Source: Phycisphaerales bacterium
GTDB lineage: Bacteria > Planctomycetota > Phycisphaerae > Phycisphaerales > SM1A02
NCBI GenBank assembly: GCA_029260575.1
Contig: JAJDDB010000003.1
Coordinates: 1 to 64,000 of the forward strand
Reading direction: 5' to 3'
Length of the DNA: 64,000 nt
A model generated the notes under the pieces. It saw only the letters and a program-made list of their open reading frames with translations, did no database searches and was not told where the DNA came from. Shown here piece after piece: positions 15,961-23,943 of this stretch (positions within the stretch are counted from its first letter, which is position 1; each line of letters starts with the position of its first letter). The position numbers and the translations under genes were made by a program.

Positions 15961-16460
15961 TCACGCTGCATCCAATCGCGGCAGCTCCTTCAACTCCACT
16001 ACCTCTGCATTCGCGTCTGTTGCAGTAGCACAGTCCAGTTGCCGACTCACGTCATACTTCCCGCACCCGCCCGGCAATAGCCTTCCCTCGTTTACCTGCT
16101 CCAGATACCGATCACGCAACTCCCGCGCTGCCTTCACCAACTTTGGATCGTTCTTCTGCCGCGGCTTGCGCGGCTTCTTCACCTTCTTCTCCACCAACTC
16201 CTCTTCCGCAGGCGCATCTGCGCGCTCCACATAGCGCACGCCTCCACTTGTAATCATCGCTGCCTTGCCCGAAGGCACACCACCGAGATGTTTACTCTTG
16301 CTGCGCGCCACCGCTGCCTTCTGCGCCCGCGTCACTTTCGGCCGCGCCTCCTGCTCCGGCCGCGTCTTCACCGCTGCGCCGCCCGGCAACGTCTTCTTCT
16401 GCTCCTGCTCCAACCCCTGATTCCCCTTCATCCCCGGCAGCACCACAGGTTTCACATCGC
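15961..16460 (-). repeat. segmental duplication, copy A (copy B at 17222-17722)
   Basis: The two ~500-base segments lie in the same orientation, 760 bases apart, and look well over 90 % identical over most of their length by eye. Homology ends at the same codon (AGA/CGTGATGTGAAACC equivalents of R-D-V-K-P). The opposite-strand YdeI-like gene sits exactly between them. Confidence 0.8.
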
Positions 16461-16485
16461 GCAACCAGGTACGCACAATGCGCAC
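15961..16485 (-). CDS. duplicated basic C-terminal module (truncated copy)
   Basis: The protein has 174 residues and nearly repeats the last ~165 residues of the GNAT-linked gene at 17222-18337. Shared stretches include RDVKPVVLPGMKGNQGLEQE, SKSKHLGGVP, AAMITSGGVRYVERADAP, KKVKKPRKPRQKNDPKLVKA and RELRDRYLEQVNEGRLLP. The acetyltransferase half is missing and is replaced by MRIVRTWL. The two copies differ mainly in the ~30 residues before the shared end ELPRLDAA. It may be a functional stand-alone Lys/Arg-rich protein or a non-functional duplicate. No ribosome site is obvious, and the YdeI-like gene separates it from the parent copy. Confidence 0.55.
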   Translation of the reverse strand: MRIVRTWLRDVKPVVLPGMKGNQGLEQEQKKTLPGGAAVKTRPEQEARPKVTRAQKAAVARSKSKHLGGVPSGKAAMITSGGVRYVERADAPAEEELVEKKVKKPRKPRQKNDPKLVKAARELRDRYLEQVNEGRLLPGGCGKYDVSRQLDCATATDANAEVVELKELPRLDAA

Positions 16486-17221: not shown

Positions 17222-17722
17222 CTACGCAGCATCCAACCGAGGCAGTTCCTTCATTTCAACGTGCGAAGCGTGTGCATCAACATCTGTAACCCCTTCCAAC
17301 TGTCTGCTCACGTCATACTTCCCATTCGCAGCAGGCAATAGTCTTCCCTCGTTTACCTGCTCCAGATACCGATCACGCAACTCCCGCGCTGCCTTCACCA
17401 ACTTCGGATCGTTCTTCTGCCGTGGCTTGCGCGGCTTCTTCACCTTCTTCGGCTCCAACTCCTCTTCCGCAGGCGCATCTGCGCGCTCCACATAGCGCAC
17501 ACCACCACTTGTAATCATCGCAGCTTTCCCTGCAGGCACACCACCGAGATGTTTACTCTTACTGCGCGCCACCGCTGCCTTCAGCGCCCGCGTCACTTTC
17601 GGCCGCGCCTCCTGCTCCGGCCGCGTCTTCACGGCTGCGCCGCCCGGCAACGTCTTCTTCTGCTCCTGCTCCAACCCCTGATTCCCCTTCATCCCCGGTA
17701 ACACCACCGGCTTCACATCACG
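17222..17722 (-). repeat. segmental duplication, copy B
   Basis: Partner of the segment at 15961-16460; it forms the 3' part of the GNAT-linked gene. Differences are mostly single substitutions, such as CTGCCGTGGC versus CTGCCGCGGC, plus a replaced stretch near the C-terminus. Confidence 0.8.
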
Positions 17723-18337
17723 CCAATGCGCACCCTCGGGAAGAGGCAACACCAAACGATCCTCCGCAACCGCGCCGTTACTCGTCAGACTCGGATACCA
17801 ATACGGCGTCACCTCATCACCGTCCCGAATCCGCCGCTGCCAGAAGATATGTATCCGCTGCTTGGCGCGGCTGCCCGTCCGAAACGCCAAAGGCACAAAC
17901 CCGATCGCCTCCCAGAACCAGTTCGCCTGAATGTCCTGCGCACACCAGCAGCAGAACAACCGACACCCATACGCAGCACGGTCGAACACCGCCTGCACCA
18001 GCGTCGCCCCCACCAGATGCCGATGCCGAATCGGCAAGACGTTGAGCTGATAAATAATCCCCACATCATCACGCTTCATGTACTGATCACGAGCAACGCA
18101 ATATCCGATCGCGTTGCTCGCATTATCAACCGCAATGACGACATTGCCCTGCTCAATGTTCGTCTCAATCGCTTTGCGCGGCGACCAACCCACCATATGA
18201 CTATGCATCTTCTGCAAACCGTCAATGAAACCGAAATCGTCCAGCGTCGCCTCGCGCACCGACACCGCACACCGCGGACTCGGCAGGGGCACCGCAGGTT
18301 CATCATTGGCATTCACAATATGTGCTTCGTGTGGCAT
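17222..18337 (-). CDS. GNAT-like acetyltransferase domain fused to basic C-terminal module
   Basis: The protein has 371 residues. Residues ~20-165 look like a GNAT fold: VREATLDDFGFIDGLQKMHS, VVIAVDNASNAIGYCVARDQ, IIYQLNVLPIRHRHLVGATL (acetyl-CoA loop region, here R-H-R-H-L-V-G-A), then FWEAIGFVPLAF. After ~200 a Lys/Arg/Pro-rich tail begins (RDVKPVVLPGMKGNQGLEQE ... KKVKKPRKPRQKNDPKLVKA) and ends RELRDRYLEQVNEGRLLP...KYDVSRQL. The tail exists as a second, truncated copy at 15961-16485. Its charge suggests nucleic-acid binding. The substrate is unknown. The tail pattern recurs in planctomycete accessory regions as I recall them. Confidence 0.65.
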   Translation of the reverse strand: MPHEAHIVNANDEPAVPLPSPRCAVSVREATLDDFGFIDGLQKMHSHMVGWSPRKAIETNIEQGNVVIAVDNASNAIGYCVARDQYMKRDDVGIIYQLNVLPIRHRHLVGATLVQAVFDRAAYGCRLFCCWCAQDIQANWFWEAIGFVPLAFRTGSRAKQRIHIFWQRRIRDGDEVTPYWYPSLTSNGAVAEDRLVLPLPEGAHWRDVKPVVLPGMKGNQGLEQEQKKTLPGGAAVKTRPEQEARPKVTRALKAAVARSKSKHLGGVPAGKAAMITSGGVRYVERADAPAEEELEPKKVKKPRKPRQKNDPKLVKAARELRDRYLEQVNEGRLLPAANGKYDVSRQLEGVTDVDAHASHVEMKELPRLDAA

Positions 18338-19453: not shown

Positions 19454-19512
19454 TGTTGTTCTTCCTTTAGTAAGAGTGTTCACCACAGAGCTGCAGAGAG
19501 ACGAGTCTTCTT

Positions 19513-19595
19513 GTCATTCCTGCGAAGGCAGGAATCCAGCGACCACTCGCAAACCGTTCACAGATCGACTGGGCTCCCGCCTGCGCGGGAGTGAC
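19513..19595. repeat. MITE/REP-like element with imperfect terminal inverted repeats
   Basis: The left end GTCATTCCTGCGAAGGCAGG (19513-19539 in full) and the right end (19569-19595, ...CCCGCCTGCGCGGGAGTGAC) form 27-base inverted repeats with ~21 matches. Each end is itself a small hairpin (TTCCTGCGAAGGCAGGAA; CTCCCGCCTGCGCGGGAG). This is the widespread intergenic T-T-C-C-x-G-C...G-G-G-A-A palindrome pair seen in many bacterial genomes, likely mobilised in trans or acting as a transcription boundary. Confidence 0.7.
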
Positions 19596-19667
19596 GAATT
19601 GCAGTTCGCGTCTCCGTGGCACATCAACACGTTTGGCTGTTTGGCTTAGCAGTTGTTTGGCGTTTTA

Positions 19668-20333
19668 CTACGCTGCGATCGTCATACTCACAGGCAGACT
19701 CCACGGCCCGACATCGCCGCGCTTGCCCTGCCAGCGAGCGAAATACGTCGCCACCTTCTTGTTGTCTTCCTCGACGAACGCCACCGCAATCGGGTTCTTC
19801 GTGAAGTTGCCGATGAACTCCGCCTGGCCTTCATCATCAATCGGGTCTTCGCCGATCGCAGCAAAGAGTTGCAAGGATGCCGCCCCAAACGGTTTCGCCC
19901 GCTTTTCCGGCTCCAGTGAATCAGCATATCGCACCGTCTGCGCGCCCGGCGTGTTCGCAACAATGTTCAGCAGCGGCGATGTCTGTGGCGCAAAGATCGG
20001 TTCGCGTGCATTATTCACCGGCCGCACGCCGATGCCCAGCTTCAAGCTGTCATCAATACCGTTGTTGTACTTGATCTGGATCGCGTACTGTCTGCACAAT
20101 GCTTCTGCAGCATTGCGTTTGGTGTCCTTGATGTTGACCGTGTCCTGCGTTCGCGTCGGCACATATGTCGCCACCGACAGCGCATCGCTGAACTCGATAA
20201 CAGCTTCGTTGATCGTGGTCGCATCAGCTCCGGTCAGGTCAAATGAGCCGGGATTCGAAGAAATGCCTTGCGCAAATGCCTCCATCCAGATCAGCAGCTG
20301 CGCATCGGTTCGTGGTATGAATGATTCCGCCAT
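19668..20333 (-). CDS. conserved hypothetical protein (multi-copy planctomycete/metagenome family)
   Basis: The protein has 221 residues. GTAGGAGTTTTACATC before the ATG supplies a ribosome site. The start MAESFIPRTDAQLLIWMEAF, a middle rich in Ala/Thr helices (KRNAAEALCRQYAIQIK), GIGVRPVNNAREPI, and the end YFARWQGKRGDVGPWSLPVS match a pattern I recall from many uncultured bacteria, with no known function. No signal peptide or metal motif. Its neighbours downstream on the strand are the frameshifted Ig-like gene and the GNAT-linked gene, so the three may be one accessory cluster. Confidence 0.65.
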   Translation of the reverse strand: MAESFIPRTDAQLLIWMEAFAQGISSNPGSFDLTGADATTINEAVIEFSDALSVATYVPTRTQDTVNIKDTKRNAAEALCRQYAIQIKYNNGIDDSLKLGIGVRPVNNAREPIFAPQTSPLLNIVANTPGAQTVRYADSLEPEKRAKPFGAASLQLFAAIGEDPIDDEGQAEFIGNFTKNPIAVAFVEEDNKKVATYFARWQGKRGDVGPWSLPVSMTIAA

Positions 20334-20707
20334 GATGTAAAACTCCTACTCTGTCATTGATTGGTTTCACTGGTGCGGCAACCCGCCGCATCATCTTGTC
20401 ACCTTCTCACCTCATCACGCTCTCGTTCCGGTCCCCTGCATCGAGCAACCGCGAACGACAATCCAGCCGAACCTTGCGGAATTTGCCCACCCTCAGGCAA
20501 AACGGAATACGCCGAGCCGTACCATGACACACGCCGAACATCTCACAGCGCGCAGCGAACTCCGCTCCCACTCCCCGGGGAGAGGGCTGGGCTGAATGGA
20601 TTCACTTCCCAGCGCATGACCTGCGCAACATTTTACAAATGTCTTGCGCGCAATGGACTTACAGCACGAGCAAAACGCAGCGCTGCCGCGATTCCCGACA
20701 TCGGAAA
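20334..20707. other. intergenic stretch with a GC-rich palindrome
   Basis: No coding signal. At 20565-20591 there is CTCCCACTCCCCGGGGAGAG followed by GGCTGGG, with a perfect palindrome CTCCCCGGGGAG (20571-20582). It resembles a dispersed intergenic repeat known in planctomycetes and other phyla (C-C-T-C-T-C-C-C-C-G-G-G-G-A-G-A-G-G type). Confidence 0.45.
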
Positions 20708-20918
20708 TGTTCGTAGAACAGTCGGCAATGTTCGTAGAACAGTCGCAAGTGTTCGTAGCGCGACAGGCAATGTTCGTAGAGCGATAGGAAGTGCTCGTAG
20801 CGCGATGCAGAGTGTTCGTAGAACTTCCGGGTGTGTTCGTAGAACGATGTAGAATGTTCGTAGAGCCGTGCGGAAGTTTCCGATTGTTCTACGAACATTC
20901 TCGATAGCGCGATGAACA
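20708..20918. repeat. 21-bp repeat array: eight direct plus two inverted units
   Basis: Eight uninterrupted units of exactly 21 bases start at 20708, 20729, 20750, 20771, 20792, 20813, 20834 and 20855. Each begins with TGTTCGTAG (once TGCTCGTAG), followed by 12 variable bases often containing a GCGA-like core. After one spacer base, two units follow in inverted orientation (20877-20897 and 20898-20918). The array therefore ends in a perfect 14-base inverted repeat, AGAATGTTCGTAGA (20851-20864) and TCTACGAACATTCT (20888-20901). Twenty-one bases equal seven codons, and both strands stay open. The minus strand would encode a heptad pattern of aromatic-Y-E-H (FYEHCRLFYEH). No ribosome site precedes that frame, so DNA- or RNA-level function is at least as likely. 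Confidence 0.85.
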
Positions 20919-21124
20919 TGCGCGCAAGTGCGATGACGCTATCCTAAGGTGCGAGGATTCCTTCCGAAAGCGCTACGGAGCGAGTCGCCAACTCGACGAC
21001 CTCTTTCGGAGACGCGAGGATGACACTGAGGAGAGAGACGATCAGACGGGATAACATGAATAATGTTCTTGCTGGCCATTTGTCTGTGGTATAGTACGAG
21101 CACTAATTGAATCGGAGTTTGGTA

Positions 21125-21343
21125 ATGACTGAAGAACAAGCGAATGCGGTTGCGTCAGCATTAAGCGGAACGCCGTGGCAAAGCGGCGGCGACATATGGC
21201 TCGTCATCGTGGAACGCAAGGACGGCTCGATCGTCGTGATCAGTGACGAGAGCATCTGCGTGTATGCGAATCAGGAATGCCTGGACGGCGGACAACCGGA
21301 TCAGTTCATTAGTCTGGATGCAGCTAATGCTGCGACTTCTTGA
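21125..21343 (+). CDS. small hypothetical protein, 72 residues
   Basis: The ATG preceded by CGGAG begins MTEEQANAVASALSGTPWQS, then GGDIWLVIVERKDGSIVVIS and ...GGQPDQFISL. The compact alternating beta pattern looks like a real small domain. No family is recognised. It is preceded by the 21-bp array, and its 3' end overlaps the convergent vsr gene by 20 bases, so it could be linked to the restriction-modification unit by position only. Confidence 0.6.
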   Translation: MTEEQANAVASALSGTPWQSGGDIWLVIVERKDGSIVVISDESICVYANQECLDGGQPDQFISLDAANAATS

Positions 21344-21743
21344 GAAAGCTGTGGATTCGTCGCGCAAGCCTGTCCTTGTCGTGAGTCTGGCATTCCCAAA
21401 TGATTAGCACCTTCCACCCACCTCGTCGAAGAGCCGCGAGATTGCGATGATCCCTTTTTACATTTCCCTCTCGCTTCTTGCGCCAGAACTCCGCATTGGT
21501 CTTCGGTGTAACCCGGCCAAAACGACAATTGTGCGTGTGCCAGTAGCAGCCATGAACAAGAATGATCTTCTCAAGTCGCGGAAACACGAGATCGGGTTTC
21601 CCGGGAAGATCCTTTCGATGCAGACGGAAACGATAACCCAAGCTGTGGGCCATGCTGCGCACGACAAGCTCGGGCTTCGTGTCCTTGCCCTTGATCGCTG
21701 CCATGCAACGACGACGCTGCTCCGGTGTCAGTACGTCTGCCAT
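21324..21743 (-). CDS. vsr: very short patch repair endonuclease Vsr
   Basis: The protein has 139 residues, the normal family length. Vsr nicks 5' of T in T:G mismatches left by deamination of 5-methylcytosine, starting short-patch repair. Family marks are MADVLTPEQRRRCMAAIKGK, the HRKDLPGKPDLVFPRLEKII strand with catalytic Asp, VHGCYWHTHNC (two His and metal/zinc Cys-His) and LRRGGWKVLIIWEC. I used the internal ATG at MADVL because upstream codons are unrelated. Last gene of the methyltransferase-HNH-vsr run, which is its expected partner context. Confidence 0.93.
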   Translation of the reverse strand: MADVLTPEQRRRCMAAIKGKDTKPELVVRSMAHSLGYRFRLHRKDLPGKPDLVFPRLEKIILVHGCYWHTHNCRFGRVTPKTNAEFWRKKREGNVKRDHRNLAALRRGGWKVLIIWECQTHDKDRLARRIHSFLKKSQH

Positions 21744-21873
21744 GAAACAGGGGTTTCCGAATCGCGGATGTATTACTGCGGTTCTGATTGATACACCCAA
21801 GCACTGGAACTTGTACGAGCTGGCGCTCCTATGAATGCGGATGTATCTTTAATGGGATCATTGGCTCGTAAAA

Positions 21874-22683
21874 TCAACCAGCGCACCCGCATTCTTCCAG
21901 AAACTCTCGATTACGCTGTTGGATATAGCCTGCCAGCGAGTCCTTTATCTCATCAAGGTTGTGCGCAAAGTGAGCTCGACGGTGGCAATTCGGGCATAGC
22001 GCTGCAACATTCTCAAGTGAATCGTCGCCCGAATCGCCCAAGGCTTTGATGTGGTGCGCCTCAATAAACAGTGTGCCATCCACCTTTATAAAGCCCTCCC
22101 ATTCACATCCCGGCATTTCACACTTGCATCCGGAGCGACGTAACGCAAATTCTCGAACCGCCGGATCACGCTCGTATTGGCGAGAAGTCTGTTGCCTGCT
22201 CCTAACACGCATCGAAGACTGACGAGCACGACTTACAATGCGTTCGATACCAACGTCACGATATGTCCTGCTGATCACCGCGTGGGGCTGCTCCTGCTCT
22301 TCCTCTCCCTGCTCATCAGAGTCGGAAGCGGTGATGTCATCAAGTACAAGGGCGAAGACTTGATTGCCATCCGTACCCAATAGAAGTTCATCACCCTCAT
22401 GAAGCCGTTCGAGCAATCCACGCCCCATTCGCGGCTCCGGCTGACGACCTGAACCGACTCTTTCAGAGGCGTAGTAGCTGGTCTGCAATATTCCGCCTCG
22501 TCCAACATTGTGAATCGCGATCAGTCGTTCCTCGTCGTGATGAACCGGCTCGAATCCAGCTATCTGCAGGACCACTCGCTGTTCGGCATTGGGAAGGTAT
22601 GCTCCCTTGTTCACGTCAGTGTGCGTGACGGTCTTCCGGCCTGTCCGGACCATGATCTGCAGAAAATCATCAACTACTGACAT
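21874..22683 (-). CDS. HNH endonuclease, probable restriction enzyme
   Basis: The protein has 269 residues. The C-terminal HNH domain (~185-250) has CKCEMPGCEW, FIEAHHIKALGDSGDDSLEN and VAALCPNCHRRAH: two Cys pairs for structural zinc and the EAHH/N/H catalytic motif. The N-terminal ~170 residues are unassigned (QRVVLQIAGFEPVHHDEERL) and may recognise DNA. It lies 48 bases after the C5 methyltransferase stop on the same strand and before vsr, the arrangement of a type II system. McrA-like 5-methylcytosine-dependent cleavage is less likely, because a co-encoded methyltransferase would then be self-toxic. No ribosome site is evident at the ATG. Confidence 0.75.
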   Translation of the reverse strand: MSVVDDFLQIMVRTGRKTVTHTDVNKGAYLPNAEQRVVLQIAGFEPVHHDEERLIAIHNVGRGGILQTSYYASERVGSGRQPEPRMGRGLLERLHEGDELLLGTDGNQVFALVLDDITASDSDEQGEEEQEQPHAVISRTYRDVGIERIVSRARQSSMRVRSRQQTSRQYERDPAVREFALRRSGCKCEMPGCEWEGFIKVDGTLFIEAHHIKALGDSGDDSLENVAALCPNCHRRAHFAHNLDEIKDSLAGYIQQRNREFLEECGCAG

Positions 22684-22731
22684 TCAGTCAGTATCAGGCG
22701 ACTCGGCCTGAGTTGTCAAACCGCCATCGAG

Positions 22732-23943
22732 TCAGTGCCGACCCGCGACCTGCCGTCTCGACGACTTCTTGAGCAGACAGCCGTTCGGGCGCCTCGTTAG
22801 ATGTGCTGCCATCGTCTGAACAATCTGCCTACCCACCGCCTCGACCACTGGCGGCACGACTGCGTTGCCAAACTGCTTGTACGCCTGTGTGTCCGACACG
22901 ACGATCGGCAGTTCATCCGGAAACCCCATGAGCCTAGCTGCCTCACGGGGCGAAAGCCTCCGAGGGTTCTTCCCCTTTCCCTGTGGAATCAGAACCTCGG
23001 ATCCATCCTTGTAGTAGCGGGCGCTCAGGGTCCGGCTGACACCGTCCAGATCAGTCATACCAAAGCCGAATCCGTTTCCCAGCGCCTTGTGCTTCGCAGC
23101 ATACTTCTGAAGGTAATTCCAGAGGTGATCCGTCAGCGTGTACTTCTCCGGCGATTTGCGATCGAGAATATCGCGGAACTTCGGTGGCGGGCCGACGGGC
23201 AATTCAGGAAACTCAAAGGCCACATTCGAGCCAAACAAATTGCGGTCGAATCCGACGATAAAGATTCGCTCACGATGCTGGGGAACCCATGACGCGGCAT
23301 CAATGATCCGGTCGAAGATAATGTAATCAAGTGCATCCAGCGACTTGCGAATGACATCCCACGTCTTTCTCTTGTCATGCGTACGCAGATTCTTGACGTT
23401 CTCGAGGAGAATCACTGGCGGCCGCTTGATCTCGATCACCTTTGCTAGGTGAAAAAACAGCGCTCCCTGCTTCACGTCCTTGAAGCCGTGCTGCATCCCA
23501 AGACTTTTCTTCTTTGAAACGCCTGCAATGGAAAACGGCTGGCATGGAAAACCAGCGGCGAGTACATCGTGATCCGGGATGTCTTCGGGCCTGATCTCGC
23601 GAATGTCCCCCTCAGGCAGTTCGCCGAACCATGCCTGATAGGTCTTCTGAGAATATTTGTCCCACTCGCTGCTGAACGTGCATCGGCCTCCCACTCGCTC
23701 GAGCCCGAGCCGCATGCCACCGATTCCGGCGAACAGATCGACTAAGGTAAACGGCATTCCGTCCATGGGGGCCGTGGTGCCGTTTTGGACACCGTCAAAC
23801 AGTGGCAGACCCTCCCCGCCCTCCCATGCGTTTGTGAGCACGGAAAGCACAAATTCCTTCTGTGATGTCCGCAGCCCATAGCTCTTCTCATCGATCCACG
23901 CCTTGAGTTGCGGGGGAATGTCACGAATCAGCAGTTGTGGCAT
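22732..23943 (-). CDS. DNA (cytosine-5)-methyltransferase with N-terminal ribbon-helix-helix-like domain
   Basis: The protein has 403 residues. The C5 motifs occur in order: I TLVDLFAGIGGMRLGLE (~65), IV LAAGFPCQPFSIAG with catalytic Cys (~133), VI ILLENVKNL, VIII QHRERIFIVGF, and X near the end FGNAVVPPVVEAVG. It transfers methyl from S-adenosylmethionine to cytosine. The first ~40 residues, MPQLLIRDIPPQLKAWIDEK and SQKEFVLSVLTNA, look like a ribbon-helix-helix of the Arc/FitA type rather than the usual start at motif I. Such a domain could repress its own promoter, and a palindrome lies 21 bases upstream. An AGAGGA site precedes the ATG. First gene of the methyltransferase-HNH-vsr operon. 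Confidence 0.93.
   Translation of the reverse strand: MPQLLIRDIPPQLKAWIDEKSYGLRTSQKEFVLSVLTNAWEGGEGLPLFDGVQNGTTAPMDGMPFTLVDLFAGIGGMRLGLERVGGRCTFSSEWDKYSQKTYQAWFGELPEGDIREIRPEDIPDHDVLAAGFPCQPFSIAGVSKKKSLGMQHGFKDVKQGALFFHLAKVIEIKRPPVILLENVKNLRTHDKRKTWDVIRKSLDALDYIIFDRIIDAASWVPQHRERIFIVGFDRNLFGSNVAFEFPELPVGPPPKFRDILDRKSPEKYTLTDHLWNYLQKYAAKHKALGNGFGFGMTDLDGVSRTLSARYYKDGSEVLIPQGKGKNPRRLSPREAARLMGFPDELPIVVSDTQAYKQFGNAVVPPVVEAVGRQIVQTMAAHLTRRPNGCLLKKSSRRQVAGRH

Follow-up and report, generated by a model that had tools for sequence, protein, structure and literature searches.

Plasmid iterons and centromere arrays consist of direct repeats of about 20–22 bp on one DNA face, located next to rep or par genes at an origin or a partition site, and clustered regularly interspaced short palindromic repeats (CRISPR) are composed of repeats and unrelated spacers of roughly 25–40 nt each. 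A turn of B-DNA spans 10.5 bp, and helical phasing puts sites that are two turns apart on one face. Cooperative multimer binding to direct repeats has been described for BldC of Streptomyces (PMC5859096) and for the SARP heptameric repeats (PMC5930380), and Apl of phage 186 binds cooperatively to sites one turn apart (PMC7498355). Repetitive extragenic palindromic sequences and bacterial interspersed mosaic elements (REP/BIME) are short palindromic intergenic units that occur in pairs of opposite orientation and contain GTAG (PMC3733652). Here, we describe a repeat array at positions 20708–20918 of a 64,000-nt stretch, hereafter the window, from a Phycisphaerales bacterium (SM1A02; assembly GCA_029260575.1, contig JAJDDB010000003.1, positions 1–64,000, forward strand). 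It belongs to a set of at least a dozen non-coding arrays of this bacterium, all with a strict 21-base spacing, and we tentatively read it as a row of putative sites for a dimeric, probably polymerising DNA-binding protein.

The array contains eight direct 21-bp units on the plus strand (20708–20875), which begin at 20708 + 21k and each comprise a core and 12 variable bases; the exact core TGTTCGTAG is present in seven of the eight, with TGCTCGTAG in the fifth. A single base (G20876) separates these from two inverted units on the minus strand, the first (20877–20897) carrying the exact core and the second (20898–20918) carrying TGTTCATCG, with two mismatches. The first inverted unit forms a perfect inverted repeat of 15 bases, AATGTTCGTAGAACA, with units 1 and 2. 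The original prediction for this DNA, which described eight direct units with a constant core and 12 variable bases closed by two inverted units, was confirmed, and the perfect inverted repeat that it reported is present, with a length of 15 rather than 14 bases. The linkers differ widely from unit to unit; thus, the likeness of the cores is not due to recent duplication.

The same period recurs elsewhere in the genome. Self-similarity was measured at every lag in 1.26 Mb (the window plus 60 pieces of 20 kb each, together about 31% of the genome), with genes masked using a simple codon model. In the intergenic lag spectrum, 10–12 loci were found at each of the lags 21, 42, and 63, compared with 0–3 at any other lag; the scan favours indel-free arrays, and indel-rich arrays would have appeared as additional lags. 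The majority of the arrays fall outside the genes called by the codon model. Across 15 arrays, 13 from this genome and 2 from relatives, the unit consensuses were more symmetric about a dyad than column-permuted ones (combined p = 2.7e-11). Inverted units or arms longer than those of column-shuffled controls were found in about half of 18 arrays, which makes terminal inverted units a recurrent trait. In L187/L233 and L231, the core changes midway and the 21-bp phase is retained.

The search of the genome for the core at 21-base spacing that had been proposed with the original prediction returned a second locus. The two-core pattern matched nine times genome-wide, always in the window array or in one array on C16, and a reversed control gave no match; with mismatches allowed, the core search added arrays on C32, a weaker relative, and on C4. 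The C16 paralogue has eight direct and two inverted units in matching places, including the orientation switch, and aligns to the window without gaps (20687–20928 with L220:12734–12975, reverse strand). The two arrays differ by 53 substitutions and no indels over 211 bp, and the changed sites lie mainly outside the cores (4 of 90 core sites versus 49 of 121 other sites, p = 2.6e-10). Because the window units themselves had supplied the core, the test was repeated leaving the tested unit out, and the contrast was still strong (p = 9e-8). The L187/L233 pair, which has other cores, shows 53 substitutions and no indels in 463 bp, and the L183/L201 pair aligns gap-free over 95 bp with 15 mismatches. 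Other intergenic paralogues of the genome, a small and heterogeneous set, showed 37 gap openings per 426 mismatches; at this rate, the 121 array substitutions should be accompanied by about ten gaps, and none was observed. Non-periodic intergenic paralogues were also recorded at L215:6567–6887 and L233:15525–15845 (321 bp, 87.5% identity, gap-free). Across 120 genomes of the class, the same core was found in its own genome only, and a search of phages and plasmids returned no similar DNA. The C16 paralogue, the weaker C32 relative, and the numerous 21-bp arrays built on other cores support the earlier suggestion of a repeat family and argue against an isolated minisatellite.

Arrays of this format were also found in relatives. 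In G037, which belongs to another family of the same order, eight lag-21 intergenic loci were detected in 0.5 Mb, 5–6 of them array-like with 11–16 units and with cores including CGGATCCG, ACGCGT, and CGAACGACTCG; dyad symmetry was pronounced over six arrays (p = 1.6e-9), one of which is also in the 15-array set. Small samples of G009 (same family) and G012 contained one and no lag-21 array, respectively. Related arrays are present in G046, a congener of G037, and at one orthologous locus, anchored by a neighbour protein with 72% identity, about 14 units in G037 correspond to about 2–3 in G046 with the terminal inverted unit and edge retained, indicating that arrays gain and lose units between species. 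A scan of all genomes with the pattern TTCRTAG yielded more than 119 loci. About half of these matches (L026–L144) were 7-bp microsatellites (GTTCATA), many of them in Prevotella and other Bacteroidota, and among the rest, Bacteroidota, Chloroflexota, Spirochaetota, and further groups contribute genuine palindromic 21-bp arrays; the pattern itself set the 21-bp period, and the matches are not proof that 21 is special in those phyla. Viral matches resembled coding repeats by eye.

The cores are conserved and recur every 21 bp, and the linkers drift in sequence at a fixed length; together with the dyad symmetry and the two-turn period, this is the pattern of protein sites in a row on one DNA face, and such a row is what it predicts here. 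The features that characterise phased operators and iterons, namely spacing in multiples of the helical turn, a conserved core, and a free linker of fixed length, were all found, and among the options listed in the original prediction, a multi-site binding array fits best. With units two turns apart, all cores would face the same side of the helix, allowing contact between adjacent proteins. The differing cores might reflect different binders or a single binder that reads the format, and candidate outcomes of binding are local repression, silencing, or chromosome organisation.

Several observations weigh against a binding array. Core sequences mostly differ from array to array (e.g., CGTT...AACG in L182, CTCCCGGG in L197, and GTTCATAGCTCT in C4), a diversity that a single regulator would leave unexplained. 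Of the three paralogous pairs, two show a strong core-versus-linker contrast and L187/L233 a weak one, and the window units taken by themselves are not significantly dyad-symmetric (p = 0.15). Divergent promoter regions hold 5 of 14 arrays compared with about 20% of the intergenic length, which is neither a clear bias nor significant. One intergenic pair of paralogous arrays (L192:3987–4403 and L225:13122–13436) has a period of 20 bp, so that 21 is dominant but not absolute. No binder came to light, and the arrays examined share no type of neighbouring gene: restriction-modification genes adjoin the window array, Abi_C and a UvrD/PD-(D/E)XK protein the C16 array, a caspase-like protein the C4 array, and metabolic and unknown genes the remaining ones. 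With such unrelated neighbours elsewhere, the restriction-modification unit, which the original prediction had named as something that may matter, does not look relevant. With somewhat more reserve than for the binding sites, we suggest that the arrays may form a class of chromosomal elements, spread through the genomes of Phycisphaerae-type bacteria and defined by format rather than sequence, i.e., partly palindromic 21-bp rows with mostly array-specific cores, often with inverted units, in which phase and core are selected.

The main rival is a selfish or neutral satellite with some structural constraint, which would spread by whole-array copying, grow and shrink by unit exchange, acquire fold-back arms by template switching, and bring the cell no benefit. 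The dispersal of arrays as whole copies, the shrinkage of one array with its end conserved between the two congeneric species, and the inverted arms in about half of 18 arrays are all consistent with this; however, the core/linker contrast and the lack of indels are unexpected of neutral DNA, and the copy number is low, with two full copies per element, so that we regard such satellites as rather unlikely. It is considerably less likely that the arrays are mobile repeats of the REP/BIME type or miniature inverted-repeat transposable elements (MITEs) mobilised by a transposase of the Y1 (RAYT-like) or another type. GTAG occurs inside units, terminal inverted units are recurrent, and the genome has three Y1 transposase genes, but high copy number is absent, core pairs (≤3 mismatches) outside arrays are at the control level, and two of the three Y1 genes have no adjacent array. 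The third lies about 1 kb from a different 21-bp array (L298:2913–3120, core TGCGCAAACGG) with an open reading frame (ORF) in between, and the window array flanks none of them. Regarding MITE features, the window element has inverted units and two copies, and no obvious target-site duplication was seen by eye.

Products of the arrays were also considered. A structured non-coding RNA, either as a transcript folding back via the inverted units or as a protein-binding hairpin per unit, appears improbable. On either strand, the window array folds with an energy 4 standard deviations below that of dinucleotide shuffles, the window and C16 arrays yield a conserved fold (z = -7), certain arrays such as C4 fold well on a single strand, and a Bacteroidota-type 21-bp hairpin array (L116:1103–1403) shows within-unit compensatory changes (GTAG/CTAC, GTGG/CCAC, and GGCG/CGCC). 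However, the good folding of the window array on the two strands stems from its inverted units, and the eight direct units alone fold no better than column shuffles. Covariation does not support the repeat RNA of the original prediction, as there was none within units (p = 0.42) and compensatory pairs between the window and C16 were at the chance level among few sequences (5 versus 4.3 expected). Structure is absent from L187/L233 (z near 0), and the sole Rfam match in 124 kb including four arrays was a tRNA. Nothing in the results demands an RNA role. Small genes for heptad-repeat (Y-E-H) proteins are the hardest alternative to credit, even though open frames of 86–95 codons exist in the window, C16, and C32. 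Both strands of the window array had been described as open; this holds for the minus-strand frame of Y-E-H heptads (20659–20919, 86 codons), which we judged not to be a gene, whereas the plus-strand ORF (20361–20852) terminates within the seventh unit. Between the window and C16, the Y-E-H frame has 10 synonymous versus 31 nonsynonymous codons and a stop in C16, in contrast to the conserved heptads with synonymous changes expected of the proposed coiled-coil micro-gene. The substitutions are spread evenly across codon positions, which indicates that there is no protein-level selection on the Y-E-H 'protein'. L187/L233 likewise shows 17, 18, and 18 substitutions by codon position, and synonymous changes are in excess in none of its frames, so that purifying selection on a heptad protein was detected in neither pair; a 430-aa coding frame in L187/L233 was considered and rejected after the substitution test. 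A three-base rhythm in column conservation is absent in all arrays tested, stops interrupt all six frames in several arrays, the inverted units run in the opposite reading direction, and the heptad frames have no Pfam match. The C32 frame, with a coding-like codon score of 12.0 (true genes average 14.3), is the one possible exception to the non-coding verdict.

The window array sits in a region without called genes, between a 221-aa gene (19668–20333, minus strand) with its 5' end toward the array and no Pfam family, and a small ORF of 72–78 aa (21107–21343, plus strand) with a coding-like score and no Pfam family above the cut-off. In the intergenic region containing the array, scanning for promoters and terminators gave results at the chance level. 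On the minus strand at 21324–23943, a Vsr endonuclease, an HNH protein, and a C5 cytosine methyltransferase are encoded in a row and likely form a restriction-modification unit. Two other minus-strand ORFs (15961–16485 and 17222–18337) share a near-identical C-terminal domain (KHLGGVP.GKAAMITSGGVRYVERADAPAEEEL...), which is fused to a GNAT-like N-terminus in the second. An inverted pair of CGTC-type palindromes (GTCATTCCTGCGAAGGCAGGAATCC) is located at 19511–19596 and has relatives at L231:4027–4112, and similar sequence borders the L187/L233 elements.

A fixed helical phase with changing cores is an unusual format for bacterial chromosomes, and no description of such an array class was found in the open-access literature searched. 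If the arrays bind proteins, they would mark a regulatory or chromosome-organising layer in a phylum that has been little studied, and an array with its binder would be a ready tool for placing tandem sites on one DNA face. A class defined by format, if true, would point to an architectural or silencing system not described before, perhaps involving a binder family and possibly with relatives in other phyla. As a simple procedure, the intergenic lag-spectrum scan could immediately reveal which bacteria carry such arrays.

Compared with known systems, the arrays resemble CRISPR in combining a constant core with a variable part of constant length, but the 21-nt unit is far too short, and the variable parts show partial conservation and inheritance between paralogues, which upholds the earlier exclusion of CRISPR. 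Bacterial minisatellites and heptanucleotide repeats are likewise tandem and vary in unit number between species, whereas the units described here are old, diverged, and indel-free, with a selectively conserved core and no 7-bp sub-period. REP/BIME are also short, palindromic, and intergenic, with pairs of opposite orientation and GTAG in the unit; unlike them, the present arrays have no dispersed single units, keep a strict 21-bp tandem period at low copy number, and do not flank transposase genes. Plasmid iterons and centromeres share direct repeats of similar length on one DNA face, but here a dozen or more chromosomal arrays are involved, and their neighbours are unrelated, with no replication or partition gene beside an array. 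The binding regions of BldC, Apl, and SARP are similar in having several short helix-phased sites, which in the known systems are occupied by cooperating proteins; they comprise few sites of one known protein, whereas the arrays described here run to as many as 16 units at two-turn spacing, mostly with array-specific cores and with no known binder.
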